DNA of 44,550 bases. Origin: an uncultured Candidatus Melainabacteria bacterium (GTDB taxonomy: Bacteria; Cyanobacteriota; Vampirovibrionia; Gastranaerophilales; Gastranaerophilaceae). The stretch is from positions 1 to 44,550 of the forward strand of contig CAKVLN010000012.1 in the NCBI GenBank assembly GCA_934757275.1. The letters run 5' to 3'. Under the pieces are notes generated by a model, which saw only the letters and a list, made by a program, of their open reading frames with translations, was not told where the DNA came from and made no database searches. The first letter of the stretch is position 1, and each line of letters opens with the position of its first letter. Of this stretch, positions 3,657 to 38,601 are shown one piece after another. The translations under genes were made by a program, and so were the position numbers.

Positions 3657-4268
3657 ATGACTGGAATTAGCCTAGGGGTTACAAATACTAGTAACCAATC
3701 TTTTGGAATTAAAAATAACAATTTTTCACAAGGGAAAAATGCGGTTTATGCAACCAAAGGTGAACCTATGTACCAAAAAGAAATGGACGCAGATGAAGAT
3801 GGTGTTATTACGTTCAAAGAATTTATGGATTACTGTGACGAAAATGGTATTGGCTACAAAGAACGTGTACTAATGTTGAATAATCGCTTGACTTATCAGC
3901 TTAACAAAAAAACTGAAGAAAGTAGCGAAAAAGTTAAAGAAGAGGCTAAAAAAGCAGAAGAATCTGAAAACACAGAAGAAGAAATTAGCTCTGAAAAAAT
4001 ATACGCAAGAAAAGGCGATTCTAACTATGAAGAAGTAATTGATGGCAATGATGATGGCAAAATTACTTACGAAGAGTACATGGAATATTGCAGAAAACAA
4101 AGCGAAAATCCAGCAAATCAAGAAATTTCACCAAAAGCAGAGGCGGTAAAAACTGAAAATCCAGACACTAAAGAAGAGCAAATTGTAGTAAAAGATTACG
4201 CAAAAGCGTTCAAAAGCTACACGAACTCTGAACCAAAAGCAGAAAGTAAGATTGAAGACGAAGCTTAG
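3657..4268 (+). CDS. Two-EF-hand calcium-binding protein
   Basis: This 203-residue acidic protein has two canonical EF-hand loops, DADEDGVITFKE (about residues 44-55) and DGNDDGKITYEE (about 130-141). Each has Asp at positions 1, 3 and 5, Gly at 6 and Glu at 12. Between and after them lie Glu/Lys-rich low-complexity linkers. There is no signal peptide. The N-terminus MTGISLGVTNTSNQSFGI carries the short Ser-Phe-Gly motif shared with other proteins here. GAAAGGA precedes the start. The loops are close copies, suggesting internal duplication. Its role is unknown; a calcium sensor or effector is inference. Confidence 0.8.
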   Translation: MTGISLGVTNTSNQSFGIKNNNFSQGKNAVYATKGEPMYQKEMDADEDGVITFKEFMDYCDENGIGYKERVLMLNNRLTYQLNKKTEESSEKVKEEAKKAEESENTEEEISSEKIYARKGDSNYEEVIDGNDDGKITYEEYMEYCRKQSENPANQEISPKAEAVKTENPDTKEEQIVVKDYAKAFKSYTNSEPKAESKIEDEA

Positions 4269-4279
4269 AGCTTTGTCGC

Positions 4280-4852
4280 TTAAATTTCAATTTCACCTTG
4301 TCTAAATACGACAACTTTATCGTCTTTAAAACCCGCAACAGTAGAGGCTTTTCCTTTTGCTAAGTGTCCATAATCTGGAATTACTAAATCAACTTTATCA
4401 CCAATATACTTAACTGCCTCATCATAAGTTAGTGCAGGAGCTTCGCCAGAAAGATTTGCGCTTGTAGTTGCAAGCACTCTACCATCAATATTCTTGCAAA
4501 TATTTGCAAAGGTTTCGTTGTCTGGTATCCTTACACCAACAGTTGGAAGAGAAGAAGTTATATAATCTGGTGTTTTATCAGATTTTTCTAAAACAAGAGT
4601 CAACGCCCCTGGGAAATATTCTTTGATTAAGCGTTGCGCTTGTTTATTAATTGGTTGTTTCAAATAATCAAAAAGATTATAAAACTCATCGCTCATCAAA
4701 ATTAATGGTTTTTTGCCATCACGATGTTTAATTTCATAAATTTTTTTTACGGCTTTTTCGCTTGTCGGCAAACAACCCAAGCCCCAAACTGTATCTGTTA
4801 CATAAGCTATAACGCCATCATTTTTTAATACTTCGTTTATTTTTTCAAACAT
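4280..4852 (-). CDS. tsaC: Threonylcarbamoyl-AMP synthase (Sua5/YrdC/TsaC family)
   Basis: This family makes L-threonylcarbamoyl-AMP from threonine, bicarbonate and ATP for t6A37 modification of ANN-decoding tRNAs. The protein is 190 residues, the single YrdC-domain size, without the extra Sua5 domain. Family signatures are visible: KHRDGKKPLILM, PGALTLVL, TVGVRIPDN and ATSANLSGE. GGAGAG precedes the ATG and TATAAT (minus strand) lies upstream. It is convergent with the EF-hand gene, 11 bp between stops. Confidence 0.92.
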   Translation of the reverse strand: MFEKINEVLKNDGVIAYVTDTVWGLGCLPTSEKAVKKIYEIKHRDGKKPLILMSDEFYNLFDYLKQPINKQAQRLIKEYFPGALTLVLEKSDKTPDYITSSLPTVGVRIPDNETFANICKNIDGRVLATTSANLSGEAPALTYDEAVKYIGDKVDLVIPDYGHLAKGKASTVAGFKDDKVVVFRQGEIEI

Positions 4853-4900
4853 AACTAATTCTCTCCAGATAGTATAATTATACTCTTAAAAAACCATTAT

Positions 4901-4929
4901 TTAACATTTTTGTCTTTTTGTAATATAAT
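4901..4929 (+). promoter_or_regulatory. Promoter of the yceD-rpmF-plsX-fab block
   Basis: TTAACA at 4901-4906 and TATAAT at 4924-4929 are spaced 17 bp apart, about 31 bp before the first start codon at 4961, which has AAGGAG upstream. Confidence 0.6.
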
Positions 4930-4960
4930 TACTGTTGTGTAGAAAGATAAAGGAGAACTT

Positions 4961-5206
4961 ATGGTTCAACAATTTAATACTCCACAAAAAACAAGACAAG
5001 CAGTTATCCTTTTTTTGAAAGGTTCTGCAACTCCTGTTGTAATGTATTTTGAAAACCCACAAGCGGTTTATGCAGAATTAAAACAATTAATGAAAAGCCC
5101 AACTCCAGTTTTGGTAGAAAAAGAGCCTGTTGGTCCAATCAAAAAATTGTGCTTTGTTTCAACTCAAATCGCTGGTCTAGTATTGCAGGAAGAACCTTAT
5201 GCGTGA
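4961..5206 (+). CDS. Conserved-looking 81-residue protein, first gene of the lipid block
   Basis: This small soluble protein, with no signal peptide or membrane segment, has a predicted strand-helix-strand character (AVILFLKGSATPVVMYFE, then AVYAELKQLM, then IKKLCFVSTQIAGLVL). I do not recognise a family. Its stop overlaps the start of yceD by 8 nt (5199-5206), indicating translational coupling. Position as promoter-proximal gene of a ribosome-and-lipid operon suggests a housekeeping or regulatory role, but no function can be assigned. Confidence 0.75.
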   Translation: MVQQFNTPQKTRQAVILFLKGSATPVVMYFENPQAVYAELKQLMKSPTPVLVEKEPVGPIKKLCFVSTQIAGLVLQEEPYA

Positions 5207-5714
5207 GAAGAAACACATAAAAAATCATAACGCAGTTCTAATTGAGGACATCGAAAGAGAACACGACAAAACTTTTCACTTTCATTTTGATGGTGAAATA
5301 AAAGAACTGGAAGATTGTAATATAAAAGCTGATTTAGAATTAAAATCTTTGGGTGGTTATATAGAAGTTACTGGTCATGTTGATGGAAAAATTACATTAG
5401 AATGTGATAGATGTCTTAACAAATATACATATAATTTAAACTTTGATATTGAAGAAACTTATGCAAAGCATTCCCTTCTTGACGAGTATTCACAAGAGGT
5501 TGAGCTACAATCAGGTCAATTTATTACAGACTTAAATGGAGCAAAAGAAATTGATATTTATGACTTATTGTATCAATCTGTAATATTACAGTTACCAAAT
5601 AAAAAAGTTTGTGGTATAAATTGTAATGAGGGATTATTTGTGTCTGATGAAGATATGGAAATCCACGACGATAGAATGGACGTCTTTAAAAACATTCAAA
5701 TTAACCCAAAATAA
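5199..5714 (+). CDS. yceD: YceD/DUF177 family protein
   Basis: This 171-residue protein carries the family's CDRC pair (LECDRCLNKY, about residue 70) and a second pair CGINC near residue 146, likely metal-binding. DUF177 proteins sit immediately upstream of rpmF in most bacteria and are linked to 23S rRNA accumulation. Here the gene is coupled to the preceding ORF by an 8-nt overlap and followed by rpmF after a 97-bp spacer that contains a dispersed palindrome. The family assignment comes from the Cys pattern, size and context. Confidence 0.88.
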   Translation: MREKKHIKNHNAVLIEDIEREHDKTFHFHFDGEIKELEDCNIKADLELKSLGGYIEVTGHVDGKITLECDRCLNKYTYNLNFDIEETYAKHSLLDEYSQEVELQSGQFITDLNGAKEIDIYDLLYQSVILQLPNKKVCGINCNEGLFVSDEDMEIHDDRMDVFKNIQINPK

Positions 5715-5715
5715 C

Positions 5716-5760
5716 TGAGGTTTTCCTCAAATGTAGATTGGGCTTTTCAGCCCAACATAA
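5716..5760. repeat. Dispersed palindrome copy 1 (yceD-rpmF spacer)
   Basis: Two hairpins lie side by side: TGAGG/CCTCA (5716-5729) and TTGGGCT/AGCCCAA (5738-5755), the latter within ATGTAGATTGGGC...GCCCAACATAA. This is one of five related intergenic palindromes (others at 7367, 9572, 10431 and 18478). Confidence 0.7.
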
Positions 5761-5811
5761 CAACACAAAGAATATATAAGTAGTACAACAAAATAGAAAG
5801 GTATAGGAAAA

Positions 5812-6102
5812 ATGGCAGTACCAAAGAAAAGAACAGGGCATAGTGCTCAAGGTAAAAGAAGATCTAACTGGAAAGCAACAAAACCAGAATTGACAACTTG
5901 TCCAAATTGCGGAGCTAAGGTTTTAACTCACACAGTTTGCACAGCTTGTGGAACATACAAAGGTAAAGTAGTTTCTAACAAGGCTGAAGGTTTCCAAGAA
6001 GAAGTAAAAGAAGAAAAGAAATCTTCTAAAAAAGCTGAAAAGGTTGAAGAAAAAGCAGAAGAAGTTAAAGAAGAAACTTCAGAAGAAAAACCAGAAGCTT
6101 AG
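5812..6102 (+). CDS. rpmF: Ribosomal protein bL32 with long charged C-terminal tail
   Basis: Residues 1-55 are a standard bL32: MAVPKKRTGHSAQGKRRSN, then a zinc ribbon with Cys30, Cys33, Cys43 and Cys46. bL32 is usually about 57-60 residues; here residues 56-96 add a tail made almost wholly of Lys and Glu, with repeated EEVKEE and KAEKVEEKAEE-type segments. The tail is in frame with an ordinary stop, so it is not a frameshift artefact visible here. It is followed by a hairpin (6118-6138) and plsX, the usual rpmF-plsX order. Confidence 0.93.
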   Translation: MAVPKKRTGHSAQGKRRSNWKATKPELTTCPNCGAKVLTHTVCTACGTYKGKVVSNKAEGFQEEVKEEKKSSKKAEKVEEKAEEVKEETSEEKPEA

Positions 6103-6117
6103 TAAAAAAAGAATTAA

Positions 6118-6138
6118 GGTGCGACTTAAAGTCGCACC
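6118..6138 (+). terminator. Hairpin between rpmF and plsX (partial terminator)
   Basis: GGTGCGACT-TAA-AGTCGCACC forms a perfect 9-bp stem followed by CTGTTTTC. The U-tract is poor, so it may reduce rather than stop readthrough into plsX, or protect the upstream mRNA end. Confidence 0.55.
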
Positions 6139-6183
6139 CTGTTTTCTAAATAATCTGAATTACGGGATAAAGGGAAGAGTTAA

Positions 6184-7239
6184 ATGACAAGAATAGCTAT
6201 TGATGCAATGGGTGGAGATCACGCTCCTTTTGAAATTATTGCTGGTGCAGTATGGGCGGCAGCTGAATATGGTGTAGCGTTAGAATTAGTTGGTAAACAA
6301 GATAGAATTGAGCATTGTCTTGAAGTAATTCAAAACGAAGGCTTTCTTTCTGACTGCGGAAAAGCAGGCAGAAAAAGACGTGTTCGAGTTGATGTAAAGT
6401 CGCTAGATATCAGAATTACACATGCATCAGAAATCATTGAAATGGGCGAAGCTCCAGGTCAAGCTATTCGTAAAAAGAAAAATTCTTCTATTGTATTAAC
6501 AGTTAATTCAGTTGCTACAGGAAGTTCTGATGCATTAGTTGCAGCAGGTTCTACTGGCGCAGCAATGGCATCAAGCTTGTTCGGCTTAGGCAGAATCCCT
6601 GGTATTGATAGACCAGCAATTGCAGTAACACTTCCTACAATGAAGAAACCAATTGTTATCATTGATGGTGGTGCTAATAGCAATTGTACACCTCAAATGC
6701 TTAAACAATTTGCAATTATGGGCATGACTTTCTCTAAGAACGTTTTAGGTGTTGAAAACCCAAGAGTTGGCGTTTTGAACATTGGTGAAGAGGCTGGTAA
6801 AGGTAACGAATTAGCACAAAATACATACAACTTGTTAGAAGAAGAAAAAGAAAAATTCAACTTTATGGGTAACATTGAAGGTCGTGAATTGTTCTTGAAC
6901 CTATGCGATGTTGTTGTTTGCGATGGTTTCGTTGGTAACGTAGTACTTAAAGTTACAGAAGGCACATCATCATTGTTATTCAAGATGATTAAGAGCGAAT
7001 TTAAGTCAGATTTCTTAGGTATGCTAATCGGTATGTTAGCAAAACCTTTCATGAAAAGAATTTATGAAAAAATTAATTATGAAGAATTTGGCGGCTGCTT
7101 GCTTTTAGGCGTTAAGGGCATAACTGTTATTTCTCACGGCAGAAGTAAAGCTTATGCAATCAAGAATGCAGTAAGAGTAGCAAAAGAAGCCGTTGAAACA
7201 GGCGTTAACAGAAAGATTTCTGAAAGAATTGAAGGCTAA
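6184..7239 (+). CDS. plsX: Phosphate acyltransferase PlsX
   Basis: PlsX converts acyl-ACP and phosphate to acyl-phosphate, the donor for PlsY in phospholipid synthesis; it is a peripheral membrane enzyme. The 351-residue length is normal. Signatures: MTRIAIDAMGGDHAP at the N-terminus, ALVAAGSTGAAMA, RPAIAVTLPT, IDGGANSNCTP, and VVCDGFVGNVVLK. It lies 82 bp after rpmF, as in many genomes. A strong hairpin (7265-7302) follows, so fabH may have its own promoter. Confidence 0.96.
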   Translation: MTRIAIDAMGGDHAPFEIIAGAVWAAAEYGVALELVGKQDRIEHCLEVIQNEGFLSDCGKAGRKRRVRVDVKSLDIRITHASEIIEMGEAPGQAIRKKKNSSIVLTVNSVATGSSDALVAAGSTGAAMASSLFGLGRIPGIDRPAIAVTLPTMKKPIVIIDGGANSNCTPQMLKQFAIMGMTFSKNVLGVENPRVGVLNIGEEAGKGNELAQNTYNLLEEEKEKFNFMGNIEGRELFLNLCDVVVCDGFVGNVVLKVTEGTSSLLFKMIKSEFKSDFLGMLIGMLAKPFMKRIYEKINYEEFGGCLLLGVKGITVISHGRSKAYAIKNAVRVAKEAVETGVNRKISERIEG

Positions 7240-7264
7240 GAAACGCTAAAATTGATTTATTATT

Positions 7265-7302
7265 GAAAAATTTTGGGCAGAAATTCATACCCAAAATTTT
7301 TC
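7265..7302 (+). terminator. Intrinsic terminator-like hairpin after plsX
   Basis: GAAAAATTTTGGG (7265-7277) pairs perfectly with CCCAAAATTTTTC (7290-7302) around a 12-nt loop. The stem is 13 bp and its 3' side ends in five U, acting as a U-tract. It lies inside the presumed fab operon. Confidence 0.65.
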
Positions 7303-7510
7303 GGTGATTAAAGAAACATAAAGTGAATAGGTGAATAAGTTCGTTATATTCTCTACGCTCATAAAAATGTAGGTTGGGCATACCTGTCCAACAAAAACTA
7401 AAGAGGGTTAAACCCTCACCCGCATTCGTAAGGCTCGCATTGCTCGCCAACGACTGCTCCCTCTCCCAAGTAGAGGGGAATAGACTAAACAAAAGAGGAG
7501 TAAATATACA
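7303..7510. repeat. Repeat-rich spacer before fabH, including dispersed palindrome copy 2
   Basis: Copy 2 of the palindrome family is at 7367-7395 (GGTTGGGCATACCTGTCCAAC). At 7320-7340 the stretch AAGTGAATAGGTGAATAAGT recurs at 44186-44204 with one difference. GAGGGTTAAACCCTC (about 7403-7417) and CCTCT/AGAGG hairpins follow. No ORF is convincing here. The fabH ribosome binding site (AAGAGGAG) is at the end of the spacer. Confidence 0.6.
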
Positions 7511-8521
7511 ATGGGAAATAATACAATTCCTTTAAGGATTGCAGGCGTTGGTTATAGTGTGCCTGAAACAGTTATCACAAATGATGATTTAACAAAATTA
7601 TATGACACTTCAGACGAATGGATATATACAAGAACTGGTATCAAAGAAAGACGCTTAGTTTCTGGAAATGAAGATGCAATTGATTTGGGTGTTGAGGCAT
7701 CAAAAAGAGCTATTGAAAAATCTGGCTTGAGTGTTGACAAGATTGATATGATTATTGCCGCAACCTCTGCGCCTCCACAATTATACCCAGCACTTGCCTG
7801 CCAAGTTCAAGCAAGATTAGAAATTCCAAACCATGTTCCTGCGTTTGACATAACTGCGGCATGCTCTGGTTTGATTTATGCATTAAGCATGGCAAAAGCA
7901 TACATTGCAAGTGGCATGTACAAAACGATTTTGATAGTTGCAACCGATAACAACTCTAGACTTTTAGACTGGGCAGACCGCTCTACATCAATTCTATTTG
8001 GTGATGGTGCTGGTGCAATGGTTGTAACACAAGCAGAAGATGGCGTTGACGATATTATTTCAATTGATATTAAAGCTGACGGTTCTTTAGGCTCATTAAT
8101 TGAACTTCCATTCGCTGGTAAAAATTGTCCGCTTGTTGCACCTTGCGATGAAGTTAAACAAGGTATTGTAATGAATGGTAAAGAAGTGTACAAATTTGTT
8201 GCCAGAGTACTTCCTCAATATGTTGAAGAAATGATTGCAGATGCAAATTTAAAAGCCGAAGATATCGACTACTTAATACCTCACCAAGCAAACTTGAGAA
8301 TTATCCACGCCGTTCAAGAAAGATTAGGATATTCAGAAGAAAAAGTTGTAACAAATATTAAGTATTATGGCAATACTTCTGCAGCATCAATTCCGCTAGC
8401 TATGGTGGAAGGTGTTGAACAAGGCAAAGTTAAACTAGGTTCGACTGCAATTCTTTGCGGTTTCGGTGCTGGTATGACCTGGGGCGGTGCTATCGTAAGA
8501 TTAAGAGAAGGCATTTGCTAA
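7511..8521 (+). CDS. fabH: Beta-ketoacyl-ACP synthase III (FabH)
   Basis: FabH condenses acetyl-CoA with malonyl-ACP to start fatty-acid synthesis. The protein is 336 residues. The catalytic triad is visible: Cys118 in ITAACSG, His258 in IPHQANLRI, and Asn288 in YGNTSAAS. The C-terminal GFGAGMTWGGAIVR motif is intact. The ATG has AAGAGGAG 9-10 bases upstream. It heads fabH-fabD-fabG and is separated from plsX by a terminator-like hairpin and repeats. Confidence 0.97.
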   Translation: MGNNTIPLRIAGVGYSVPETVITNDDLTKLYDTSDEWIYTRTGIKERRLVSGNEDAIDLGVEASKRAIEKSGLSVDKIDMIIAATSAPPQLYPALACQVQARLEIPNHVPAFDITAACSGLIYALSMAKAYIASGMYKTILIVATDNNSRLLDWADRSTSILFGDGAGAMVVTQAEDGVDDIISIDIKADGSLGSLIELPFAGKNCPLVAPCDEVKQGIVMNGKEVYKFVARVLPQYVEEMIADANLKAEDIDYLIPHQANLRIIHAVQERLGYSEEKVVTNIKYYGNTSAASIPLAMVEGVEQGKVKLGSTAILCGFGAGMTWGGAIVRLREGIC

Positions 8522-8571
8522 TTCTAGGTTAAAATAAACAGAATTTATAAAAAATAATAAGGAGTTAAACA

Positions 8572-9519
8572 ATGGTGAAAAAAGTTGCGTTTTTATTTCC
8601 TGGACAAGGTTCACAAGCCGTTGGCATGGGAAAAGATTTATATGATAATTTTGACTCAGCAAAAAAAGTGTTTGATACTGCTGACAAAACCTTGAACAAA
8701 AGTATTACTACTATTTGTTTTGAAGGGCCGGAAGAAGACTTGAAACAAACAATTAATACTCAACCGGCAATTGTTACAATGTCTATTGCAGCAATGGAAG
8801 CTTTAAAATCAGAATTAAATATCAGTGCTGATTTTGTTGCTGGTCATTCTTTAGGAGAATATTGCGCAATGCACGCTGCTGGTGTTATGGATATAGAAAC
8901 AACACTAAGATTAATTCAAAAACGTGCAGATTTGATGGGCGCAACTAAAGGCGGTTCTATGGCAGCAGTTCTAAATGCTTCTGAAGAACAATTAAAACAA
9001 GGTTTAGAAGAAGGTTCTAAAGTTGGATATGTTGATGTTGCAAACTACAATTCACCAGCTCAAGTTGTTATCACTGGTGATGATAACGCAGTAAAAGTAG
9101 CTTCTGAATGGTTACTTGCAAATGGCGTAAGAAGAGTAGTTCCTCTTGCAGTATCAGGAGCTTTCCACTCTAAATTTATGGAAGGTGCCGGCAAGGAATT
9201 TGCAAGTTTTGTTTCTGAATTTGATTTAAACAATGCCACAATTCCTGTAATTACAAACGTTGATGCAGAAGTTACAACTCTTGCAGAAGACTTCAAATCA
9301 AAAATGCCGAAACAAATTTCATCTTCAGTACATTGGACACAAACAATTCAAAAAATGGTTGCAGAAGGCGTTGATACATTTATTGAAATGGGTCCAGGAA
9401 AAGTTCTTGCTGGTTTGAATAAGAAAATTGCTCCAGAAACAACTGTTTACAATGTATTCGACAAAGCATCTTTGGACGCAACTGTTAGCGCATTGAAAGA
9501 ACAAATGGCAGGGGTGTAA
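8572..9519 (+). CDS. fabD: Malonyl-CoA:ACP transacylase (FabD)
   Basis: FabD loads malonyl groups onto ACP. The 315-residue protein has the N-terminal FLFPGQGSQAVGMG, the nucleophile Ser93 in GHSLGEYC, His199 in SGAFHS, and the C-terminal IEMGPGKVLAGL. AAGGAG precedes the ATG. It lies 50 bp after fabH and 104 bp before fabG; the latter spacer holds palindrome copy 3. Confidence 0.97.
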   Translation: MVKKVAFLFPGQGSQAVGMGKDLYDNFDSAKKVFDTADKTLNKSITTICFEGPEEDLKQTINTQPAIVTMSIAAMEALKSELNISADFVAGHSLGEYCAMHAAGVMDIETTLRLIQKRADLMGATKGGSMAAVLNASEEQLKQGLEEGSKVGYVDVANYNSPAQVVITGDDNAVKVASEWLLANGVRRVVPLAVSGAFHSKFMEGAGKEFASFVSEFDLNNATIPVITNVDAEVTTLAEDFKSKMPKQISSSVHWTQTIQKMVAEGVDTFIEMGPGKVLAGLNKKIAPETTVYNVFDKASLDATVSALKEQMAGV

Positions 9520-9543
9520 AAATTTTAAAATGCCAATTTGGCG

Positions 9544-10977: not shown

Positions 10978-11286
10978 ATGAATAATATTTCTCTTAGACC
11001 TAATTTTAATCAACCAATAAACCAAAAACCAACTTTTAAAGCAAAGCCACAAATGGTTAAAGAGGCCGTTGATTTGATGGGTAGTGTGCGCTGCTCATAT
11101 AATAACTTTGAAGCTAACATAATAAAAAGAGTGGTCACTAATATGCGCAATAAATTGAATGCAATTATTAAGCATGAACAAAATAGCGGTGATAAAATTT
11201 TCATAGAAAGTGATGTTATGGCTATTGAAAAGAAAATCGAATCAATGGAAAAACTGGCAGAAAAAAAACTTAGTGCTACTGCATAA
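10978..11286 (+). CDS. Small helical protein with N-terminal Phe-Lys-Ala motif
   Basis: The start is set at the ATG at 10978, which has AAAGGAG nine bases upstream; the upstream extension has no such site. The 102-residue protein begins MNNISLRPNFNQPINQKPTF then KAKP, so it carries the PTFKA form of the shared N-terminal motif at residues 19-23. The rest is helical and ends in a probable coiled coil (IEKKIESMEKLAEKKL). No family is recognised. A perfect terminator follows, so it is monocistronic. Confidence 0.7.
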   Translation: MNNISLRPNFNQPINQKPTFKAKPQMVKEAVDLMGSVRCSYNNFEANIIKRVVTNMRNKLNAIIKHEQNSGDKIFIESDVMAIEKKIESMEKLAEKKLSATA

Positions 11287-18520: not shown

Positions 18521-18877
18521 TTAAGCTGATTGCAATTTTATATCATACTTATACCCCAAACCATTTAATAGTTTAAATGCAGTTTCTAAACGAGGTTGTT
18601 TATTGCCATTTACAATTTCAGATAAATTACTACGGTCAATGTTTAGTTCTCTAGCTAATCTGCTAATTTCACCACGACCACTAGATTTCACACGAGCCTT
18701 TACAACATAAGTTAAACATCTGATAAAAGTTTCTATATTACCATCTTCTAAAAATTCACTCAAAGTAAGTTCTAACCACCCACGTTGGTATTCTGGGTCT
18801 TGAAGATGTTTTATTTGCTCGTCTTCCCAATTTGGAGCTTTTTCAAGATATTCGATTTGTTCTTTAGTTAGGGTCAT
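18521..18877 (-). CDS. higA: HigA-type antitoxin (XRE HTH)
   Basis: The start is set at the ATG at 18877, with AAAGGA eight or nine bases upstream. The 118-residue protein has an N-terminal toxin-binding-type helical part and a C-terminal helix-turn-helix (EISRLARELNIDRSNLSEIV, about residues 70-90) followed by PRLETAFKLLNGLGY. This matches the addiction-module antidote family that pairs with Gp49-like HigB toxins. It overlaps the toxin stop by 14 nt. It probably represses its own promoter at 19214-19242. Confidence 0.88.
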   Translation of the reverse strand: MTLTKEQIEYLEKAPNWEDEQIKHLQDPEYQRGWLELTLSEFLEDGNIETFIRCLTYVVKARVKSSGRGEISRLARELNIDRSNLSEIVNGNKQPRLETAFKLLNGLGYKYDIKLQSA

Positions 18878-19202
18878 AATTAGTCCTTTCACAGTAATCA
18901 TTAAAATAATTATTACACTGTTTTATTACTTTTTTCTGTTCTTTTTTATCAGAACCACCAATAAACAAAATTACAACATCATCAAGGTCATAATAATAAA
19001 TACGATAGCCCTTTCCAAAATCCATACGAATTTCAGATAATAGCGAATTTTGCAACGGCTTGCAATCACCATACAAGCCAAATTTTAATTTATCAATTCT
19101 CTTGTCCACTCTTATCTGTAATGATTTGTCAAGTTCATTGTACCAGTTGAGATATGGACAAATGCCATTTGCATCGTAATAATATCTTATTTGTTTTTCC
19201 AT
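18864..19202 (-). CDS. higB: HigB/RelE-superfamily toxin (Gp49-like)
   Basis: This family comprises ribosome-dependent mRNA interferases. The 112-residue protein contains the family pattern WYNELDKSLQIRVDKRIDKL, then GDCKPLQNSLLSEIRMDFGK (Gly-Asp and Glu-x-Arg core), GYRIYYY, and the C-terminal LFIGGSDKKEQKKVI. It is encoded before its antitoxin, the HigBA order. The promoter is near-consensus, with the -10 only 11 nt before the ATG and no ribosome binding site, so translation may be weak or leaderless. Confidence 0.88.
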   Translation of the reverse strand: MEKQIRYYYDANGICPYLNWYNELDKSLQIRVDKRIDKLKFGLYGDCKPLQNSLLSEIRMDFGKGYRIYYYDLDDVVILFIGGSDKKEQKKVIKQCNNYFNDYCERTNYDPN

Positions 19203-24266: not shown

Positions 24267-24848
24267 ATGAATATAAACAATGTTAATCAAACAAATTTCG
24301 GTGCCAATTTTATAAATAATGTAACTATTAAAAGATTTGATAATAAAGCACACCAATATAAACCATTTAAGGCTAGTTTTGTCCAATTCGATCCAAAGAA
24401 TAAAGAAGATTTTGCTGCAATGGTTGGAGCAGTAAAATCTTGGAAGGGTGAAGATTATGCCTCAACGATTGTAGATTATGCAAACAGATTAAGAACCAAT
24501 TATTTATCTCCGAAAATACACCGCATTTATATGGTAACGACCCAGCAAGATAAATTTGATAAATTAGAAAAGTCAAAAATCTTAGGTATGGTTCAAATGC
24601 ATAGCGATTCTATTGATCCAGATGAAATTAGATATTTACAAGTTAAACCTGATCAAAAACATGGAAATAAAGAAAGAGAATTTAGACTTGTAGGTTCAAA
24701 AATTTTGTCTTCAATTAAAAAAATTTATAACGAGAAAATAACTCTTCTTGCAAGTTATTCCGCTGCAAATTTTTATGAAAAACACGGTTTTACAATAACC
24801 GAACCAGATTTACTAGAATATGAATGGGTTAATAAAAAGAAACCTTAA
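24267..24848 (+). CDS. GNAT-like protein with N-terminal Asn-Phe-Gly-Ala motif
   Basis: This 193-residue protein begins MNINNVNQTNFGANFINN, carrying the TNFGA form of the shared N-terminal motif at residues 9-13. The later part looks like a GNAT acetyltransferase fold: KILGMVQMHSD, IRYLQVKPDQKHGNKEREFR (strand-4/acetyl-CoA loop region) and a typical C-terminal SYSAANFYEKHGFTI. The canonical Q/RxxGxG/A is not clear, so activity is uncertain. TATAAT (24254-24259) lies seven bases before the ATG and there is no ribosome binding site. Confidence 0.7.
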   Translation: MNINNVNQTNFGANFINNVTIKRFDNKAHQYKPFKASFVQFDPKNKEDFAAMVGAVKSWKGEDYASTIVDYANRLRTNYLSPKIHRIYMVTTQQDKFDKLEKSKILGMVQMHSDSIDPDEIRYLQVKPDQKHGNKEREFRLVGSKILSSIKKIYNEKITLLASYSAANFYEKHGFTITEPDLLEYEWVNKKKP

Positions 24849-25015: not shown

Positions 25016-25768
25016 ATGACGTTTATCTCCCCAATATTTAACAAAATAAATATTCAGAATGTACCGTTTAGGGCAAATTCGACTCCAGTAGCATATCCTA
25101 GCGGACAGAATTTGCGCAAGGATTCTTTTAATTCCAATCCCCTCTACGATAATTTTGTAGATAAAAACAAACTCACCCAGCTTGCAAAAGCTAACCCTGA
25201 AATTATGAGAATTTTGAAAGAAAATAAGATTCCATTAAAGGTTAATGTTAAAGAGCTAGAAGAGCTTAAAAATGGTCACTTGATGGACACTCGTATCACG
25301 TCTGCGAAAATGTATTCAGCCCTACCTCAAGAGATGAAGGCTGAAGTTAATCTTATGGACTTACAACAAGCAGCTATGTTGCACGATTATGGCAAAGCTT
25401 TAATTCCAGAAAAAATCTTAAACAAAACTGGCAAGTTGACTGATGAAGAAAAGAAGATTATGGAGTTACATTCGGAGCTTGGGTATGAACTTCTTAAACA
25501 ACAAGGCGTTAACCAGAATGTTTTAAACATGGTAAAATATCATCACCAGAACCCAGAAGGCAGTGGTTATCCCGTGGCTGAAACTGGCTACACGCACGAT
25601 ATTGCTACACAAATTTTAGCGACTGCCGACAAATATTCTGCACTAAGAGAAAAACGAAGCTATAAAGAGCCAATGAGCCGTGAGGAAGCATTGAAAATTA
25701 TACAAGAAGATGCCAATAACGGTCAAATTGCACCAGAAATCTACAATGCATTAGAAAAGACCGTATAA
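25016..25768 (+). CDS. HD-GYP-like phosphohydrolase with N-terminal Phe-Arg-Ala motif
   Basis: This 250-residue protein begins MTFISPIFNKINIQNVPFRA, with the motif at residues 16-20. An HD domain follows: HDYGKALIPEKILNKTGKLT (His123, Asp124), HSELGYELL, HHQNPEGSGYP (His176-His177, with GYP 184-186), then ATADKYSALREKRSYKEP. This matches HD-GYP phosphodiesterases that cleave cyclic dinucleotides, but no receiver or other sensor domain is fused. No GGDEF protein is in the window. It converges on malQ with three bases between stops. Confidence 0.8.
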   Translation: MTFISPIFNKINIQNVPFRANSTPVAYPSGQNLRKDSFNSNPLYDNFVDKNKLTQLAKANPEIMRILKENKIPLKVNVKELEELKNGHLMDTRITSAKMYSALPQEMKAEVNLMDLQQAAMLHDYGKALIPEKILNKTGKLTDEEKKIMELHSELGYELLKQQGVNQNVLNMVKYHHQNPEGSGYPVAETGYTHDIATQILATADKYSALREKRSYKEPMSREEALKIIQEDANNGQIAPEIYNALEKTV

Positions 25769-25771: not shown

Positions 25772-27580
25772 CTACCCTTCGCCTAAAATTTTTGCGGAAT
25801 TGTCTAAATCACGCATCAAGTCTTCGTGACCTTTGTCCAAACCTCTTTGTCTTAAAGCGGTTGCAATTGCTTTAGCAAAGTTTGGTGCTTTACCTTCTGA
25901 AACTGCTTTATAATAATCTGATTCAAAGTTTTCACCCAATCTTAAAGACCAATTACCAGTCTTTGTTCCAGGGCGGTTATAAGTTTTTGCAATTCCAAAA
26001 AAGTCAGTGAAGAAAATCTGTACACGTCTTGCAGGACTTGTAAACAATTCAGCAAAGCTTGCTGCAATAAATTTTGCCTTATCTTTTCTAATATCTTCTC
26101 TATACTGTTTTTTCTCTTTAGTTGTCGCACCCATTGGGGCAGTATCCTCTGCCAACAATTTAGTCTTTCTTAAAAAGCCTTTGTCTTTTGTATTCTTAAA
26201 TATTCCTTCAACAAATTCTAAGAAGGATTGATTGTCATGCGAACCTATCATAATTGTGTTTTTCTGCGGAGTTGTTGCACCTCTGTGGTCAAACTGTGTT
26301 ACTGAAATTCCAGAAAGCTCAAGTTTCTTCATAATTTCTTGAACCGGTTTCGTCGCATCGCCCAAATCTTCACAAATAATAGAAGACTTGTTCAAACCGA
26401 ATTTTTCAGCCGCTGGAATAATAATCTTAGTTAAAAGTGCTGCATATTCATCAAGTGAATTTTTTTTGTACTTACCCTCAACAGAATATATTCTGCCAGA
26501 ATTTTGCGGTGTCATTTTCTTTGCAGAAGTTGTATAAATAAATGGATCGATTAAACCAATAACATGGTCAATTCTAATTCCCCCTGGGAAACTTGCAAAG
26601 TAGTCTTCATATTTTTTCTTCAAAACTTCGCCCGCCTCGCCTAGTGAGCCGTCTTTATTAAAGATTTTTTCTGGGGCATAGTATTTAAAGCCCCATCTTT
26701 GGCCATCTTTTGAGAAATAATCAGGAGGGCAACCGATTGCTTTGCCTTTCAAGAACAATTTTTGATTAACCCATTCATCAACTGCTGTTTGTGCAACTGG
26801 TGAATCACCAATAATTTTAACGCCTGTTTCTCTTGCTAACTTATTAGATTTTTCATTTTCCTTCTCTAGTATCATTTGATTAAAAATATAAAAATCGTAA
26901 TCGTTTTTATATTTTGACTTTAATTCATTTATTCTATCATTAGCCTTAACTTCATCTATAGTTGAATACAAATTGCTATCTAAACTAGACCATTTTTTGC
27001 CGTCATAAAGTTCGTTTAGCAAATGGAAAATCGCACTTTGTTCGTACTTTTCTTCATTTTGTTGTTTAAACTCGATAAACTCTTTTGAGTTTTTACCGTT
27101 ATTAAACGCCTCTTTTAAAGCTACATTATAAGCTTTTCTAACATAATCGTAGTCAACATTGTTTTTGTCTGGATTATTTGCAACAATTTTGTTGAAGGTC
27201 GCTTTTGACAAAATATTACCATACTCGTCTGATGCTAATTTTTCTAACGGAATCATGAAAATGTTTTTTGCACTTGCTTCTGGTGCATAAGGTGAATTGT
27301 CTTTAGCTTTTCTCAAACCATTTGGCTCTTGCTGAATGCCAGAAATTCCATGCTCTTTCAAGAATGGAAAAAGTTTTGTTACAGTTGTTCTTGAAAACAA
27401 TGAACCAATACCTGTATTTTCTGCGCTAACTGCTGGAGCAGATGCATTGTGCAAAATTAAGTCAACTTGTTTACCCAAAAGCTCTAAACCTTGATTCAAA
27501 GAATTTGTATAAACTTTCATTTGTTTTGCGTTTGGTTTTTGACCAAAAGTTGGTGATTGAGCAATAGCCGAAATTTTCAT
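25772..27580 (-). CDS. malQ: 4-alpha-glucanotransferase (MalQ, GH77) with N-terminal motif
   Basis: The start is the ATG at 27580 (MKISAIAQSPTFGQKP), with GGAGAA upstream. Residues 9-13 read SPTFG, the shared motif. GH77 features are intact: GCPPDYFSKDGQRWG, nucleophile Asp338 in RIDHVIGL, acid/base Glu404 in CEDLGD, and Asp449 in GSHDNQS. The enzyme transfers alpha-1,4-glucans in maltodextrin or glycogen metabolism. At about 602 residues it is longer than typical short MalQ, with a lysine-rich insertion around 170-250. No other glycogen gene is in the window. Confidence 0.92.
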   Translation of the reverse strand: MKISAIAQSPTFGQKPNAKQMKVYTNSLNQGLELLGKQVDLILHNASAPAVSAENTGIGSLFSRTTVTKLFPFLKEHGISGIQQEPNGLRKAKDNSPYAPEASAKNIFMIPLEKLASDEYGNILSKATFNKIVANNPDKNNVDYDYVRKAYNVALKEAFNNGKNSKEFIEFKQQNEEKYEQSAIFHLLNELYDGKKWSSLDSNLYSTIDEVKANDRINELKSKYKNDYDFYIFNQMILEKENEKSNKLARETGVKIIGDSPVAQTAVDEWVNQKLFLKGKAIGCPPDYFSKDGQRWGFKYYAPEKIFNKDGSLGEAGEVLKKKYEDYFASFPGGIRIDHVIGLIDPFIYTTSAKKMTPQNSGRIYSVEGKYKKNSLDEYAALLTKIIIPAAEKFGLNKSSIICEDLGDATKPVQEIMKKLELSGISVTQFDHRGATTPQKNTIMIGSHDNQSFLEFVEGIFKNTKDKGFLRKTKLLAEDTAPMGATTKEKKQYREDIRKDKAKFIAASFAELFTSPARRVQIFFTDFFGIAKTYNRPGTKTGNWSLRLGENFESDYYKAVSEGKAPNFAKAIATALRQRGLDKGHEDLMRDLDNSAKILGEG

Positions 27581-31925: not shown

Positions 31926-31930
31926 TTTTA

Positions 31931-32755: not shown

Positions 32756-32829
32756 AACCCTTTGTCCTATAAATAATGCAAAAAATTGCACCCTACGATT
32801 TGTAGCATGCAATTTTTAGTAAATAATTT

Positions 32830-34140: not shown

Positions 34141-34142
34141 AA

Positions 34143-34937
34143 TTAATCCACCCAACCTGAAGCTTTAGCGTTAATATAATTTACTGGAGCAGGAGTTATT
34201 AAATTTCTTGCCTGTTGTACTAACTCTAAAGAATTTTTGTATTTATTTGAAAAATGTATTGTATCAACTTCAACAAAACTCAAACCTCCTAAGTTGTTAC
34301 GAATTTGAGAGGTGTGAAGAAGATGTTGAAAACGCTTGATTAATTCATAATTGTTTGTATTATCTGGAATAGAATAATCAATCGTCAAATCTGCGTTATA
34401 AGTCTTTTCTAGGCTTAATTCTTTTGCAACTTGTATATTTACATAATCGCCAACTTTTGTTGTAATATCACCCGCTGGAGCAACGTAAACTAGCCAATCT
34501 GAGCATTTTTTAATCGCTTTTGCAATTCCTGCTGAGAAAGTGAAATCTTCACCAGCCATTTTGTACATGGCACCGTGTGGTCTAACGTGTTCAATGCTCA
34601 AGCCATAAGCTTTTGCAAAAGACATAATAGCTCCAACTTGATAGACAACAAGAGCTTCAAGTTCGTCCTCTTTAAGTTCAACTGGTCTATAACCAAAACC
34701 TTGAATATCATTAAAGCCAATATGCGCACCGATTGCAACATTTTTTTCTTTAGCTTTAAGCATAGCTTCCTTGATAGTTACAGGGTCGCCAGCGTGGAAA
34801 CCGCAAGAAATATTCACAGAACTTACATAATCTAAAAGTTCATATTCTCTACTGTTTTTATAAATACCGTAAGCCTGCGCCAAATCGCAGTTAAAATCTA
34901 TATTCTTGATTGGTTTTCTTTCAATAACGTCCTGCAT
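34143..34937 (-). CDS. pxpA: LamB/YcsF family protein (PxpA-like 5-oxoprolinase subunit A)
   Basis: The family hydrolyses 5-oxoproline together with PxpB and PxpC. The 264-residue protein shows the N-terminal pattern DFNCDLAQAYG, NISCGFHAGDP, IGAHIGFNDIQGFGYRPVEL, YQVGAI and VRPHGAMYKM. The C-terminal third is diverged from typical PxpA and no pxpB/pxpC is adjacent, so a different substrate is possible. AGGGGAGA precedes the ATG. It leads the operon pxpA-yvcK-panB-ispG; only two bases separate it from yvcK. Confidence 0.8.
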   Translation of the reverse strand: MQDVIERKPIKNIDFNCDLAQAYGIYKNSREYELLDYVSSVNISCGFHAGDPVTIKEAMLKAKEKNVAIGAHIGFNDIQGFGYRPVELKEDELEALVVYQVGAIMSFAKAYGLSIEHVRPHGAMYKMAGEDFTFSAGIAKAIKKCSDWLVYVAPAGDITTKVGDYVNIQVAKELSLEKTYNADLTIDYSIPDNTNNYELIKRFQHLLHTSQIRNNLGGLSFVEVDTIHFSNKYKNSLELVQQARNLITPAPVNYINAKASGWVD

Positions 34938-34963
34938 TCCTATCTCCCCTAAACTACGTTCTT

Positions 34964-34992
34964 ATTATACAACAAAATAAGAATTTTGTTAT
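34964..34992 (-). promoter_or_regulatory. Promoter of the pxpA-yvcK-panB-ispG operon
   Basis: On the minus strand TATAAT (34964-34969) is preceded at 17 bp by ATAACA (34987-34992), a weak -35. AACAAAAT/ATTTTGTT (34971-34990) can fold as a weak hairpin that could end the upstream gene. Confidence 0.45.
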
Positions 34993-35025
34993 AACCAAAT
35001 GAAAAGAATAGGAATTTGTTATTTA

Positions 35026-36021
35026 TTATGAACTACCCCAATCAAATACAGAACTTATTGCATCATCAATCAAAGATTGTATAGATTGAATTTCGGTGTT
35101 AATAGATTCGAGTTCTGTAGATAAATTGTCTATATCAATATCTAAATAATCTTCTTTTTCAGAAATTCTAGCTTTTTCTGCGTTGTACCACGCAGTAACT
35201 TCTTCTCTAACTTCTGAATTGTTGTTTTGTTCAACAAGTCCACTTGTAATATAGTATGTTAATGAAGTATCTGGCTCGTAGTTACCTTCGTCATTTACTG
35301 TTGCAAGTTGGAAAGTTCCACTTGAGATTGCATCACTTACATAATCAGAATTTGTACCCATGTCATTGTTATATTCAGTTGTCCACCCATTCGCAGCCGC
35401 AGCTTGGAAGATTGGATAGTAGAAATCAACAATTGATTGAATTTTAGAAGTCGTTGTTGCAGTATTATCAACTGTTACAGTTGTACCAGTGCTTTCACCA
35501 GTGATTGTTTGAACTCCATTTGCCTCATAACTTGTGCTATTTTGAGATTTGCCATCAATAGCATTTTTAAATTGGTCTTCTGTAAACCCTGGGAGAAGTT
35601 TTGCCAAAATTGCAGGAATTTGGTCTGTTGAGAATGTTCCACCTCTACCTTGAGAATCCATTGCAGAAGATCCTAACACACTTGTAATTGCGTCTGCATA
35701 AGCCTTGCTCATTACAACTTGACCTTTATAATCAGTCAAGATCATGGAGTTTTGGCTCTTCAATGGTTGTGAACCATTAAGAATACTGCTATAATTTGCG
35801 CCATATCCCATCAAATAACTATAATTAATCTTATTATACTTGCCGTTTGCATAATAAGAAATTTGCTTAGCCTTCAATTTGCTATTATATTCTTGCGAAA
35901 GTTGGGTTTGCTCTCTTGATATTGCCATCTTTTGCATTGAATCAATAGAGATGCCATACTCGCAATCGGCTTTGCGGGCTGTCAATGTTAAAAGTCTAAT
36001 TTGTGAGCAGGCTAATCCCAT
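35026..36021 (-). CDS. Large hypothetical protein with conserved-looking helical N-terminus and coiled-coil C-terminus
   Basis: This 331-residue protein starts MGLACSQIRLLTLTARKADC and continues with a basic amphipathic helix to about residue 50. A Ser/Thr/Gly-rich middle (about 90-250) contains TGESTGTTVTVDN-like beta segments. The C-terminus (about 265-320) is a coiled coil with IDIDNLSTELESINTEIQSI. There is no signal peptide or membrane helix. I know of no function. The layout (amphipathic N-terminus, low-complexity core, coiled coil) is reminiscent of secreted or appendage-associated proteins, but this is only suggestive. AAAGGAAG lies upstream of the start. Confidence 0.65.
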   Translation of the reverse strand: MGLACSQIRLLTLTARKADCEYGISIDSMQKMAISREQTQLSQEYNSKLKAKQISYYANGKYNKINYSYLMGYGANYSSILNGSQPLKSQNSMILTDYKGQVVMSKAYADAITSVLGSSAMDSQGRGGTFSTDQIPAILAKLLPGFTEDQFKNAIDGKSQNSTSYEANGVQTITGESTGTTVTVDNTATTTSKIQSIVDFYYPIFQAAAANGWTTEYNNDMGTNSDYVSDAISSGTFQLATVNDEGNYEPDTSLTYYITSGLVEQNNNSEVREEVTAWYNAEKARISEKEDYLDIDIDNLSTELESINTEIQSIQSLIDDAISSVFDWGSS

Positions 36022-36179
36022 TTTTTGCTTCCTTTATTTTGTCCCTTTTACATGTTTATCGGCACATTTCGCCAAAACTTTAGCGATTTTGGAAAATTTT
36101 TTACAAATCTTTACAATAAGGCAATTTCTTAAAACTTTTCGTTTTATACATGTTAGAAGTAATTAGTGCAGGAGTTCGT

Positions 36180-37328
36180 ATGACTACGATTGATTCAATT
36201 CAAAACCTTCCAACTATTCAAAACGGCAACGTCGTAAATACTCAACCAAAAGTAAGCTTTAGGGCGTCAGCAGTTGAAAACAACGAAATTGACACCTTTA
36301 TAAAGCAACAAAATAGTGAAAAGAAAAAGGCAAAGAAACAACAAAATTTGAACACTGGCATTCAACTTGCAATTCTCGGTATCTTTGGTTTGATGGCAGG
36401 TTTGCAAATGAAATCAATGGGTATGTTCAAAAAAGTTAAGATTAATTTTAAAGACTTAACCAAAGAAAAAAATCTAGCAGAAATGGCACTTCCTGATAGC
36501 CAACGTAAGGCGGCAGAAAGAGTTGCAAACAGAATTGAACATTATGATGAAGTAATCAAAAAAGGTGGCAAAGACGGTACTGCAATTTTATTCTACGGTC
36601 CTCCAGGGACAGGTAAAAATACATTTGCCTATGCAATCGCAAAGAAATTCCCAAATTCTAAGTTCTTAGATATGGATATTTCAAAAATGAACTCTATGTG
36701 GCATGGTGAATCTGAAAAGAATATCCTAGGCACAATGGAAGCTACAATAAAATATGCAAAAGAACACCCTCAAGAAAAAGTTTTTGTATTCCTTGATGAA
36801 ATCGATTCTGTTATGATGCAGGATAGAAGTAGCGGTGCAAAACTTTCTCAAGACATTTTGAACGCTTTCAAAAAAGGTTTTAATAGCTTAACAGGTGAAA
36901 AGAATATCATTGTAATGGGTGCAACAAACTTAAAACTAGACCCTAAAAAAGCGTTAATGGAAGGTAAAGTTCTTGATACTGCTATGGTTGATAGATTTGC
37001 CCAAAAAGTTCTAGTTGATTTACCAACAAAAGAACAAATAAAAGAAGGTATTTCAAAATTTTATCAAAATCCTAAACGTACGATGGTTGATGATGCAATG
37101 AAGGATATCAACAATCCAAAATGGGACAAGATAGCAGAATTTTTATCAAATGAAAAACGTCAAACTTCTTTCAGAAAATTGACAGATATCTTAGGTTCAG
37201 CAGCAGAAAGTTCTCAAGTAGGTAAAAATGTTACATTTGAAGATGTAATAAAAGCTATTCAAACAAACAAAGATAGTTTGTATGCAACAGATGCAGAAAT
37301 TCAAGCATTCTTAAATTCAGTAAAGTAG
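36180..37328 (+). CDS. Membrane-anchored AAA+ ATPase A, Walker A with GKN
   Basis: The start is the ATG at 36180 (MTTIDSIQNLP), with GGAG upstream. The 382-residue protein has the KVSFRA motif (residues 24-29), one transmembrane helix (about 59-77), and an AAA+ domain: Walker A GPPGTGKN (140-147), pore loop MWHGESEK, Walker B VFVFLDEID (201-209), sensor GATN (247-250), and a possible arginine finger in DRF (271-273). The residue after the Walker A Lys is Asn instead of the Mg-coordinating Ser/Thr. It is followed 13 bp later by a second AAA+ protein of the same layout. Confidence 0.87.
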   Translation: MTTIDSIQNLPTIQNGNVVNTQPKVSFRASAVENNEIDTFIKQQNSEKKKAKKQQNLNTGIQLAILGIFGLMAGLQMKSMGMFKKVKINFKDLTKEKNLAEMALPDSQRKAAERVANRIEHYDEVIKKGGKDGTAILFYGPPGTGKNTFAYAIAKKFPNSKFLDMDISKMNSMWHGESEKNILGTMEATIKYAKEHPQEKVFVFLDEIDSVMMQDRSSGAKLSQDILNAFKKGFNSLTGEKNIIVMGATNLKLDPKKALMEGKVLDTAMVDRFAQKVLVDLPTKEQIKEGISKFYQNPKRTMVDDAMKDINNPKWDKIAEFLSNEKRQTSFRKLTDILGSAAESSQVGKNVTFEDVIKAIQTNKDSLYATDAEIQAFLNSVK

Positions 37329-37341
37329 AAGGAGTCAGCAG

Positions 37342-38601
37342 GTGACACAGTTTAATACAGTAAGTTCAATAAACTTCAAAGCAACTAGCAATGGCGTAAA
37401 TTACAATAAACGCTATACCCCTCCCATGCCAGAAAACAATCAAGATGACATGTTTTTAATGCAAGCAATGGAGCAACAAAAAGCCGTTAAAAAAGAAAAA
37501 AGTAAAGAAAGATGGTATAAAACTGGTGTTTTGGCGCAAGTTGGCATGGCAGTAGCATTTTTAGGCATGTTAGGCACAAGTCTTGTTGGACTAAAAAAAG
37601 GCGGTGCAACTGGAGCGTCAAGAAATCTTAAATTGGAATGGAAAAATATTGCTAAAGATACAAATTTCCCAAAATTGGAAGATGACTGTGTTAACCCAAA
37701 AGTTAGAGAATTTATATCTACAATGAAGAAATCTGCTGGGCTTTCTGAAAAAGCAGCAAAAGCCGCTGGCGTAAAACGTCCTGAACAATGCATTTTGATG
37801 TATGGACCTTCTGGCACTGGTAAAACTTTCTCTGCTAAGATGCTTGCAAAAGAAATTGGCGCAGAATATACAGAAGTTCAATTTGCTGATGTTTCTTCGC
37901 CATATATCGGTCAAACCTCTGTAGAAATTCAAAACGTATTTAAACAAATAAAAAATCAAGCCGAAAAGAACCCAGATAAGAAGTTCCTAGTTGGTTTTAA
38001 CGAAATAGACGCCTTGCTTGTTCCAAGAGAAAAATGTGGTGCAAATAGCTTACATTTGGCAGAAAATAGAACTGCCTTCTTGAACGGCTTAGATGATATT
38101 GCGAACTTGAAAAATATAAAAATCGTTGGTACAACAAACGTTTACCCAGAATCTGGCAATTTGGACAAAGCGTCATTGAGCAGATTCAAGAATATGATTG
38201 AGGTGCAATTACCAACTGAAAAAGAACTAAAAGCCTCTTTGAAATTCCACTTGAGAGATAGTGAAAGCGTTTCTAAGCAAAAATTCTTTGAAAACAATGA
38301 AGCTGAGATTGATAAATTTGTAGAAAAATTGCACGAAAACAAATACTCTCAAAGAGATGTAGAAGATTTGGCTGACAAAGCTCGCAATGAGTTTGCAAAT
38401 GTCTTAGAAACTTCTAAAGATATTGATGCAGAAAAATTTAAACTTAAATATTTAGACAAAGCTTTTGATTTGAAAGGACCTACAACAGGTTCAATCTCTT
38501 CTGAACCAGTGGTAGTCACTTCAACACCACGCCTTCCAAAACCAACTCAAAAAATGAGCTTGTGGCAAACTATAAAAGCTACCATATTTGGTAAATCATA
38601 A
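37342..38601 (+). CDS. Membrane-anchored AAA+ ATPase B, Walker B with Asn for Asp
   Basis: The start is GTG at 37342, with GAAGGAG about ten bases upstream. The 419-residue protein has the SINFKA motif (residues 9-14), one transmembrane helix (about 62-84), and an AAA+ domain with Walker A GPSGTGKT (155-162), pore-loop region PYIGQTS, and Walker B FLVGFNEID (215-223), where Asn220 replaces the usual Asp. Sensor GTTN and a possible Arg finger (LSRF) are present. The C-terminus is Pro/Thr-rich and ends in a short hydrophobic-basic segment. It is coupled to ATPase A, probably as a heteromeric partner. Confidence 0.87.
   Translation: MTQFNTVSSINFKATSNGVNYNKRYTPPMPENNQDDMFLMQAMEQQKAVKKEKSKERWYKTGVLAQVGMAVAFLGMLGTSLVGLKKGGATGASRNLKLEWKNIAKDTNFPKLEDDCVNPKVREFISTMKKSAGLSEKAAKAAGVKRPEQCILMYGPSGTGKTFSAKMLAKEIGAEYTEVQFADVSSPYIGQTSVEIQNVFKQIKNQAEKNPDKKFLVGFNEIDALLVPREKCGANSLHLAENRTAFLNGLDDIANLKNIKIVGTTNVYPESGNLDKASLSRFKNMIEVQLPTEKELKASLKFHLRDSESVSKQKFFENNEAEIDKFVEKLHENKYSQRDVEDLADKARNEFANVLETSKDIDAEKFKLKYLDKAFDLKGPTTGSISSEPVVVTSTPRLPKPTQKMSLWQTIKATIFGKS

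Follow-up and report, generated by a model that had tools for sequence, protein, structure and literature searches.

The window analysed here, 44,550 nucleotides of contig CAKVLN010000012.1 (assembly GCA_934757275.1) from an uncultured Candidatus Melainabacteria bacterium of the order Gastranaerophilales (non-photosynthetic Vampirovibrionia), encodes eight proteins that carry a short N-terminal element, called the tag below. We read it as a genuine targeting signal in two parts, shared by the Gastranaerophilales and related lineages. It consists of a start like M-[KR]-[IV]-x-[PA]-[IV], with hydrophobic residues near positions 3 and 6, a disordered polar linker that varies in length, and an aromatic core F-[KRG]-[AGS] ahead of the fold, the Phe of which ranges in position from residue 8 to residue 60. 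The tag is conserved in several families, is N-terminal, and sits on proteins of unrelated folds in genomes that bear a flagellar-type export apparatus; untagged paralogs of one carrier, the GH77 (MalQ) enzyme, exist in the same order. We put at about 45% the probability that the tag directs export, without being cleaved, through a second flagellar-type apparatus of these bacteria, a reading in which we infer both recognition and export.

A conserved Phe core on unrelated proteins

The original prediction had placed a Phe core near the N-termini of seven window proteins and interpreted it as a lineage-specific targeting, docking or secretion tag on diverse effectors. All seven motifs are found at those genes (Table 1), and of this interpretation a lineage-specific tag on diverse proteins is supported, by conservation in orthologs and by N-terminal enrichment. 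An eighth protein, the AAA+ ATPase starting at 3271 (AAA+ 1769), was thought to lack the core; this was mistaken, as INFRS is present and four of six homologs checked carry FKA at residue 46 (L048) or FKG at residue 60 (L103, L092 and L093), the remaining two having FGY at residue 14 (L106) or none (L088). Since the core lies at 46-60 in this family, the linker can be long.

A strict rule of fixed form, with F[KRG][AGS] preceded by a polar lead poor in acidic residues, is matched at the N-termini of five of the 46 window proteins and in one of 181 internal segments (p=1e-3). A broad rule, fixed only after examples had been seen, gives 9/46 against 3/181, and two of the nine (31931, FQR, and 1039, FTA) look like chance. 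Tag density in the window is higher than in the sampled apparatus-bearing groups, where 3.6-5.0% of genes match the broad rule. Tagged leads are polar, rich in Ser, Asn, Thr and Pro, and acid-poor, a description that is circular, as the selection rule itself demanded polar, acid-poor leads.

Homologs could be compared for five of the eight proteins (HD-GYP-like, MalQ, AAA+ A, AAA+ B and AAA+ 1769). The core is kept while the linker drifts, as the original prediction had expected of a genuine signal, with exceptions among distant relatives of AAA+ A. Ortholog sets were drawn from the best 120 of 707 (HD-GYP), 727 (MalQ) and 1219 (5'-nucleotidase, a tagged family from outside the window) matches, with identical N-termini removed and, for HD-GYP and MalQ, short proteins removed as well. 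Among the resulting 112 distinct HD-GYP N-termini (mean pairwise identity 0.65), F18 is invariant (112/112), R/K19 is found in 111 and P6 in 107, and the linker at residues 21-34 has a mean entropy of 2.73 bits, compared with 1.09 bits for the protein. F12 is present in all 46 distinct MalQ N-termini, nearly all of which begin with M-[KR]-[IV]; mean entropy is 1.83 bits at positions 4-11 and 0.71 bits over the protein, and the residues behind F12 are variable (G/T/A, R/Q). AAA+ A homologs come from 36 loci, many of Candidatus Gastranaerophilales and others of metagenome-assembled genomes (MAGs) labelled uncultured (cyano)bacterium or Melainabacteria, plus a distant Lachnospiraceae match (L036) that is no ortholog; F[KR][AGSRQ] lies inside residues 6-60 in 31 of the 36. 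The 25 distinct orthologs chosen by downstream features have FRA (12), FKA (11), FRR (1) or FKS (1) at residues 20-34, before residue 30 in 23 cases. Of 17 distinct proteins with AAA+ B as the better match, 14 have the core, the others reading FKN, FKN and FSA. In the 5'-nucleotidases (the family of L116:11533-13164) the broad F core is found in 63 of 88 distinct N-termini; several members have YGY or FGY in its place, so the core may be aromatic and not strictly Phe. The EF-hand, 102-aa and GNAT-like proteins of the window have no homolog among the loci compared, and their tag is therefore one of resemblance alone.

Tagged GH77 proteins are encoded in the window and at L050, L073 and L187. 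Other cargo includes a GT1 protein (900-916 aa; L061, L189), a member of the alpha-amylase family (L040), a 5'-nucleotidase (L116), an amidohydrolase (L133), an AAA+ protein (L051) and a DEAD/DSHCT helicase (L069), with HNH in another tagged gene of L069. A tagged protein at L071 has a sub-threshold kinase match, and many tagged proteins scanned belong to no Pfam family. The untagged GH77 paralogs of G049 (L131:518) and G145 (L204:10287) start directly in the fold, which is consistent with extra copies having gained the tag. Another GH77 of G049 (L187) has a tag-like start with the core FER, and GH77 proteins of G153 and G080 (L188, L191) have FRR.

N-terminal enrichment and a filament-less apparatus

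Enrichment was examined in sampled stretches of four groups of MAGs, with home-made gene calls (open reading frames with the start chosen by a Shine-Dalgarno-like score). Group A, the window's own, comprises G013, G027, G017, G007, G010 and G024 (G010 yielded just a single FliP and a single FlhB); group B, seven genomes with one FliP each and no flagellin; group C, six class members without the apparatus, i.e. without a type III secretion system (T3SS); and group D, the T3SS-bearing G029, G053 and G035. The MAGs are incomplete and the groups are clades, so that lineage and function are inseparable in these comparisons, and the p-values serve as guides because orthologous stretches are not independent. 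For the rule-based counts, window proteins were kept apart and a stretch of the flagellin-bearing G209 was omitted.

With the broad rule, N-terminal matches exceed internal ones in the three T3SS-bearing groups (A, 23/632 vs 28/3215, p=1e-6; B, 41/815 vs 42/3840, p=2e-11; D, 19/422 vs 37/2141, p=1e-3), while T3SS-less group C gives 5/476 vs 15/2383 (p=0.23); the T3SS-bearing genomes together have 83 matches in 1869 genes, compared with 5/476 (p=2e-4). The strict core is found in 11/632 N-termini vs 5/3215 internal segments in A, 14/815 vs 8/3840 in B and 4/422 vs 5/2141 in D. The N-terminal enrichment proposed in the original prediction is thus borne out by the broad rule wherever the T3SS is present. 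The tripeptide F[GKR]A, taken literally, is in excess in group A (19 observed, 8.7 expected) but not in groups B, C and D, where 7, 15 and 9 are observed and 10.1, 10.7 and 8.7 expected, and the core is therefore broader than F[GKR]A. We also trained a weight matrix on HD-GYP, MalQ and AAA+ A sequences together with a few of AAA+ B; applied to other proteins at a threshold of 4, it finds 24 N-terminal matches in A where 5.4 are expected from internal segments, 16 vs 6.7 in B, 9 vs 6.5 in C and 12 vs 4.6 in D, A here including window proteins near the training families and B one stretch of G209. The start motif is joined to the core in A (11/23 tagged vs 78/609 untagged proteins) and B (13/41 vs 65/774).

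In a survey of 194 genomes of the class, FlhB was found in 138, FliP in 137 and flagellin in 51. As all 51 are FliP-positive, 86 of the 137 FliP-bearing members have no flagellin (PF00669) match. Two FliP matches are found in 46 genomes, every one with flagellin (rows compared by eye). FlhB/SctU (PF01312) is present in 27/27 searched genomes of AAA+ A relatives, with two matches in 25 of them (in one, G001, including a fragment), and all 27 have flagellin as well. By reading, the first FliP belongs to a flagellar-type operon with FliQ, FliR, FlhB and FlhA (L039, L041). The second set has FliN/M-like and FliO genes followed by FliP, FliQ and FliR (L107, L110), an FlhB that adjoins a sigma-like gene (L115, L116), and FliF with FlhA (L192, L193); it also has FliE/FlgB/FlgC-like (by reading) and FlgE/F/G-like proteins, and FliK-like and FliJ-like proteins that are both under the Pfam cut-off. 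Ten flagellin-less genomes searched all have FlhA-family and FlgE/F/G-like proteins, and nine have FliF (G115 does not); none of PF00771, PF01514 and PF22692 was found in six T3SS-less genomes. The flagellin-less apparatus with rod/hook-like proteins is encoded in G049, G080, G139, G145, G153, G174 and G031 (loci L107, L110, L115, L116, L192, L196 and L197), and in the genomes looked at it is a second, filament-less set. Flagella, partial in some cases, are described for these bacteria in the portions of two papers available to us (PMC5877343, PMC3787301), and a literature search found no description of the second apparatus. Separately, Flagellin_N matches lie within very long open frames of 1,440-1,801 aa (G012:C15:17977, G024:C1:22935 and G006:C8:301).

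Some tagged genes are neighbours of apparatus-related genes. A stand-alone FlhA cytoplasmic-domain protein (FlhA-C-only) of ~490 aa is encoded at L187:9223-10701, L188:7710-9188, L191:9304-10782, L189:8299-9771 and L190:9374-10840, and in three of these five genomes read a tagged or tag-like GH77 gene lies directly downstream (L187, L188 and L191; not L189 or L190). G145 and G174 likewise have a GH77 gene downstream of FlhA-C-only, by coordinates alone, the N-terminus being unread. Tagged small proteins lie near flhB2 at L037, L040, L044 and L075.

Small tagged proteins starting with MIS[AS]VS are seen in stretches around FliP2 (L110:4218, L108:7520, L109:5488 and L111:13711) and at L037:11170, L040:9372, L044:14867 and L075:9586; those near flhB2 have by eye the appearance of glycine-rich membrane hairpins.

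A family starting with MGLAxSQxRxLxLTARK, of which window gene 35026-36021 is a member, is found in 116 of the 194 class genomes with up to 15 matches each. All carrier genomes are FliP- or FlhB-positive (rows compared by eye), and T3SS-bearing genomes without the family exist (e.g. G030, G033, G039, G045, G051 and G056). Its genes are divergent beside AAA+ A/B in the window and at 29 fetched loci. Two members scanned have no Pfam match, and the model has long terminal helices; a fold search gave no clear assignment, and the family may be an axial or secreted component.

Export, docking and other explanations

If the tag is an export signal, it would be read by the second apparatus (FliPQR/FlhA/FlhB paralogs and rod/hook-like proteins, no flagellin), which would pass the tagged proteins, unfolded, outside the cell, be it to the medium, another microbe or a host cell; the hydrophobic start would engage the gate and the Phe core would serve docking, roles modelled on those of the bipartite signals that early flagellar subunits bear. 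As in type III signals, the tag lies in the first tens of residues and its host has an export apparatus (FlhB in all 27 genomes of AAA+ A relatives). In favour of export are also the conservation of the tag, its enrichment in T3SS-bearing groups, the joining of start and core in A and B, the flagellin-less apparatus, the small tagged proteins near flhB2 and the tagged or tag-like GH77 genes behind FlhA-C-only. The 5'-nucleotidases count for export, since known relatives are extracytoplasmic and a hydrophobic run of 10 within the first 40 residues is found in 0/88 distinct N-termini (no signal-peptide predictor was run).

In early flagellar subunits such as Salmonella FlgD, the export signal combines N-terminal hydrophobic residues with a gate recognition motif that begins no nearer than 30 residues to the N-terminus, according to the part of the source available to us (PMC8983047). 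Compared with that description, the tag is similar in having small hydrophobic residues at the extreme N-terminus, a spacer and a second element downstream, and tag-bearing genomes own FlhB/FlhA/FliPQR. It differs in that its Phe is often nearer than 30 residues (F12, F18, F20-34), the longer spacing being reached just by the AAA+ 1769 family (46-60) and two of the 25 AAA+ A orthologs, and in that it sits on enzymes, whereas the flagellar signals sit on axial proteins. In a reporter assay described in the accessible part of PMC4829429, type III secretion was driven by the N-termini of Chlamydia GlgA, GlgB, GlgX, GlgP and MalQ. Those signals, as described there, resemble the tag in being N-terminal, without a signal peptide and on glucan enzymes including MalQ, the glucan-type cargo here being GH77, alpha-amylase-family and GT1 proteins. 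The likeness is by description. The tag is a consensus conserved across families, whereas that part of the source names none for Chlamydia, and untagged GH77 paralogs exist here. The RxLR and Y/F/WxC motifs follow a Sec signal peptide, in eukaryotes, unlike the tag, which is without one and bacterial. What oomycete RxLR and powdery mildew Y/F/WxC effectors share with it is a short near-N-terminal motif common to many proteins, as far as the available parts of their descriptions go (PMC2886064, PMC7644090).

Several observations weigh against export. Many tagged proteins need ATP (AAA+, DEAD helicase) and would be sensible only in the cytosol of their own cell or of a target. The core is absent from five of the 36 AAA+ A homologs (L029, L030, L032, L034 and L036), the first four of which, 4/35 of the non-Lachnospiraceae homologs, are distant from AAA+ A (35-43% identity), the start of L034 being possibly miscalled. 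It is also absent from 25 of the 88 5'-nucleotidase N-termini, two of them truncated; the start M-[ND]-[LIF]-x-[IV] is kept in 18 of these 25 (counted by eye). The flagellar gate recognition pattern is FxxxPhi, and the tag core F-[KRG]-[AGS] differs from it. The strict core is slightly enriched in T3SS-less group C (3/476 vs internal 2/2383, p=0.035) and is not different between T3SS-bearing and T3SS-less genomes (29/1869 vs 3/476, p=0.18). Of the four groups, only A shows an excess of the literal F[GKR]A; in group D the start motif has no link to the core (0/19 tagged proteins have it), and the tag did not emerge from a de novo motif search. The surroundings of apparatus genes are not enriched in tagged genes (B, 12/279 vs 29/536; A, 6/128 vs 17/504), and the co-occurrence of tag and apparatus between clades could be explained by shared ancestry or base composition.

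The main alternative, which we regard as rather unlikely, is that the tag serves docking in the cytoplasm: its Phe core would bind a hub, for instance a condensate, a site on the membrane or the stand-alone FlhA-C-like protein, and unrelated enzymes would be gathered there inside the cell without export. The mostly ATP-dependent or metabolic cargo (AAA+, DEAD/DSHCT helicase, GH77, GT1, alpha-amylase family, HD-GYP-like, GNAT-like) would suit such a hub, as would the tagged or tag-like GH77 genes behind FlhA-C-only in three of five genomes and the lack of enrichment of tagged genes near the apparatus genes. However, the tag-bearing G029, G053 and G035 have no FlhA-C-only match, and the tag is borne by the 5'-nucleotidase family, which has no Sec-like stretch. 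A signal for another export route, be it type IV-pilus-like, a type I secretion system (T1SS) or undescribed, is quite improbable. The link to type III is one of co-occurrence only, and several pilin-like proteins with FTLAEVLITLGIIG starts are seen by eye in fetched loci, but the tagged N-termini of the window have neither a Sec-type nor a prepilin-like hydrophobic stretch (by eye; no signal-peptide predictor was run), in agreement with the original prediction of no signal peptide, and the usual T1SS signal is C-terminal, whereas the tag is N-terminal. We give little credence to a processing or turnover tag, with a protease cutting before Phe or a disordered lead feeding Clp protease: N-terminal Phe is a known destabilising residue and a gene that by eye resembles clpP is found close to flhB2 at L037, L040, L042 and L044, but the conserved start half would be left without a role. 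That there is no signal, and that Asn/Ser/Ile-rich N-termini in an AT-rich genome yield F-[KRG]-[AGS] at random or through the common descent of a few families, is highly unlikely, for although bare tripeptide counts are noisy and control patterns deviate too (in B, F[AGS][GKR] with 60 vs 38.3; in C, [AGS][GKR]F with 46 vs 30.0), the Phe is invariant among variable neighbours in independent families and internal segments of the same proteins show the core far less.

If the tag does serve export, as we favour, sequence alone would reveal the secretome of an order of uncultured gut bacteria, and dozens of labelled families would form a natural data set for what a type III signal looks like. A further step, which we offer tentatively and consider somewhat doubtful, is that the Gastranaerophilales, non-photosynthetic cyanobacteria of the gut, bear a consensus signal for export by the second, filament-less flagellar-type machine on some 3-4% of their proteins (MalQ and other glucan enzymes, AAA+ ATPases, helicases, HD-GYP, nucleotidases) and send ATP-dependent enzymes into another cell. 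To our knowledge, type III signals are usually said to have no consensus; this one, if the proposal is true, has a consensus that is readable genome-wide. Even a cytoplasmic docking tag would represent an unusual lineage-wide sorting of enzymes in bacteria. The flagellin-less apparatus changes the possible reading of the "incomplete flagella" of these genomes.

Tagged proteins of the window

Table 1. Tags and the divergent neighbour of AAA+ A/B in the window, with position, strand, gene and motif.
Feature	Position	Strand	Gene and motif
AAA+ ATPase (AAA+ 1769) tag	3116..3271	-	gene 1769-3271; MRISPI start, core INFRS, F50
EF-hand protein tag	3657..3710	+	gene 3657-4268; MTGISLGV...QSFGI, F16
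102-aa protein tag	10978..11043	+	gene 10978-11286; ...KPTFKA, F20
GNAT-like protein tag	24267..24305	+	gene 24267-24848; MNINNVNQTNFGA, F11 in TNFGA
HD-GYP-like protein tag	25016..25075	+	gene 25016-25768; MTFISPI...VPFRA, F18
GH77/MalQ protein tag	27539..27580	-	gene 25772-27580; MKISAIAQSPTFGQ, PTFGQ, F12
MGLA/MGMAASQAR-family protein	35026..36021	-	untagged; divergent from AAA+ A/B
AAA+ A tag	36180..36266	+	gene 36180-37328; ...KVSFRA, F27
AAA+ B tag	37342..37383	+	gene 37342-38601; MTQFNTVSSINFKA, INFKA, F12

Pfam families on the tagged window proteins are AAA (the three ATPases), EF-hand, HD_5/HD and Glyco_hydro_77. The 24267 protein has a GNAT match (Acetyltransf_7) under the Pfam cut-off, and the 102-aa protein at 10978 matched no Pfam family. 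In AAA+ A the tag precedes a hydrophobic segment (by eye), which is followed by the AAA domain. At 18521-19202 the window has two small overlapping genes that by eye resemble a RelE/HigB-type toxin and a helix-turn-helix antitoxin.

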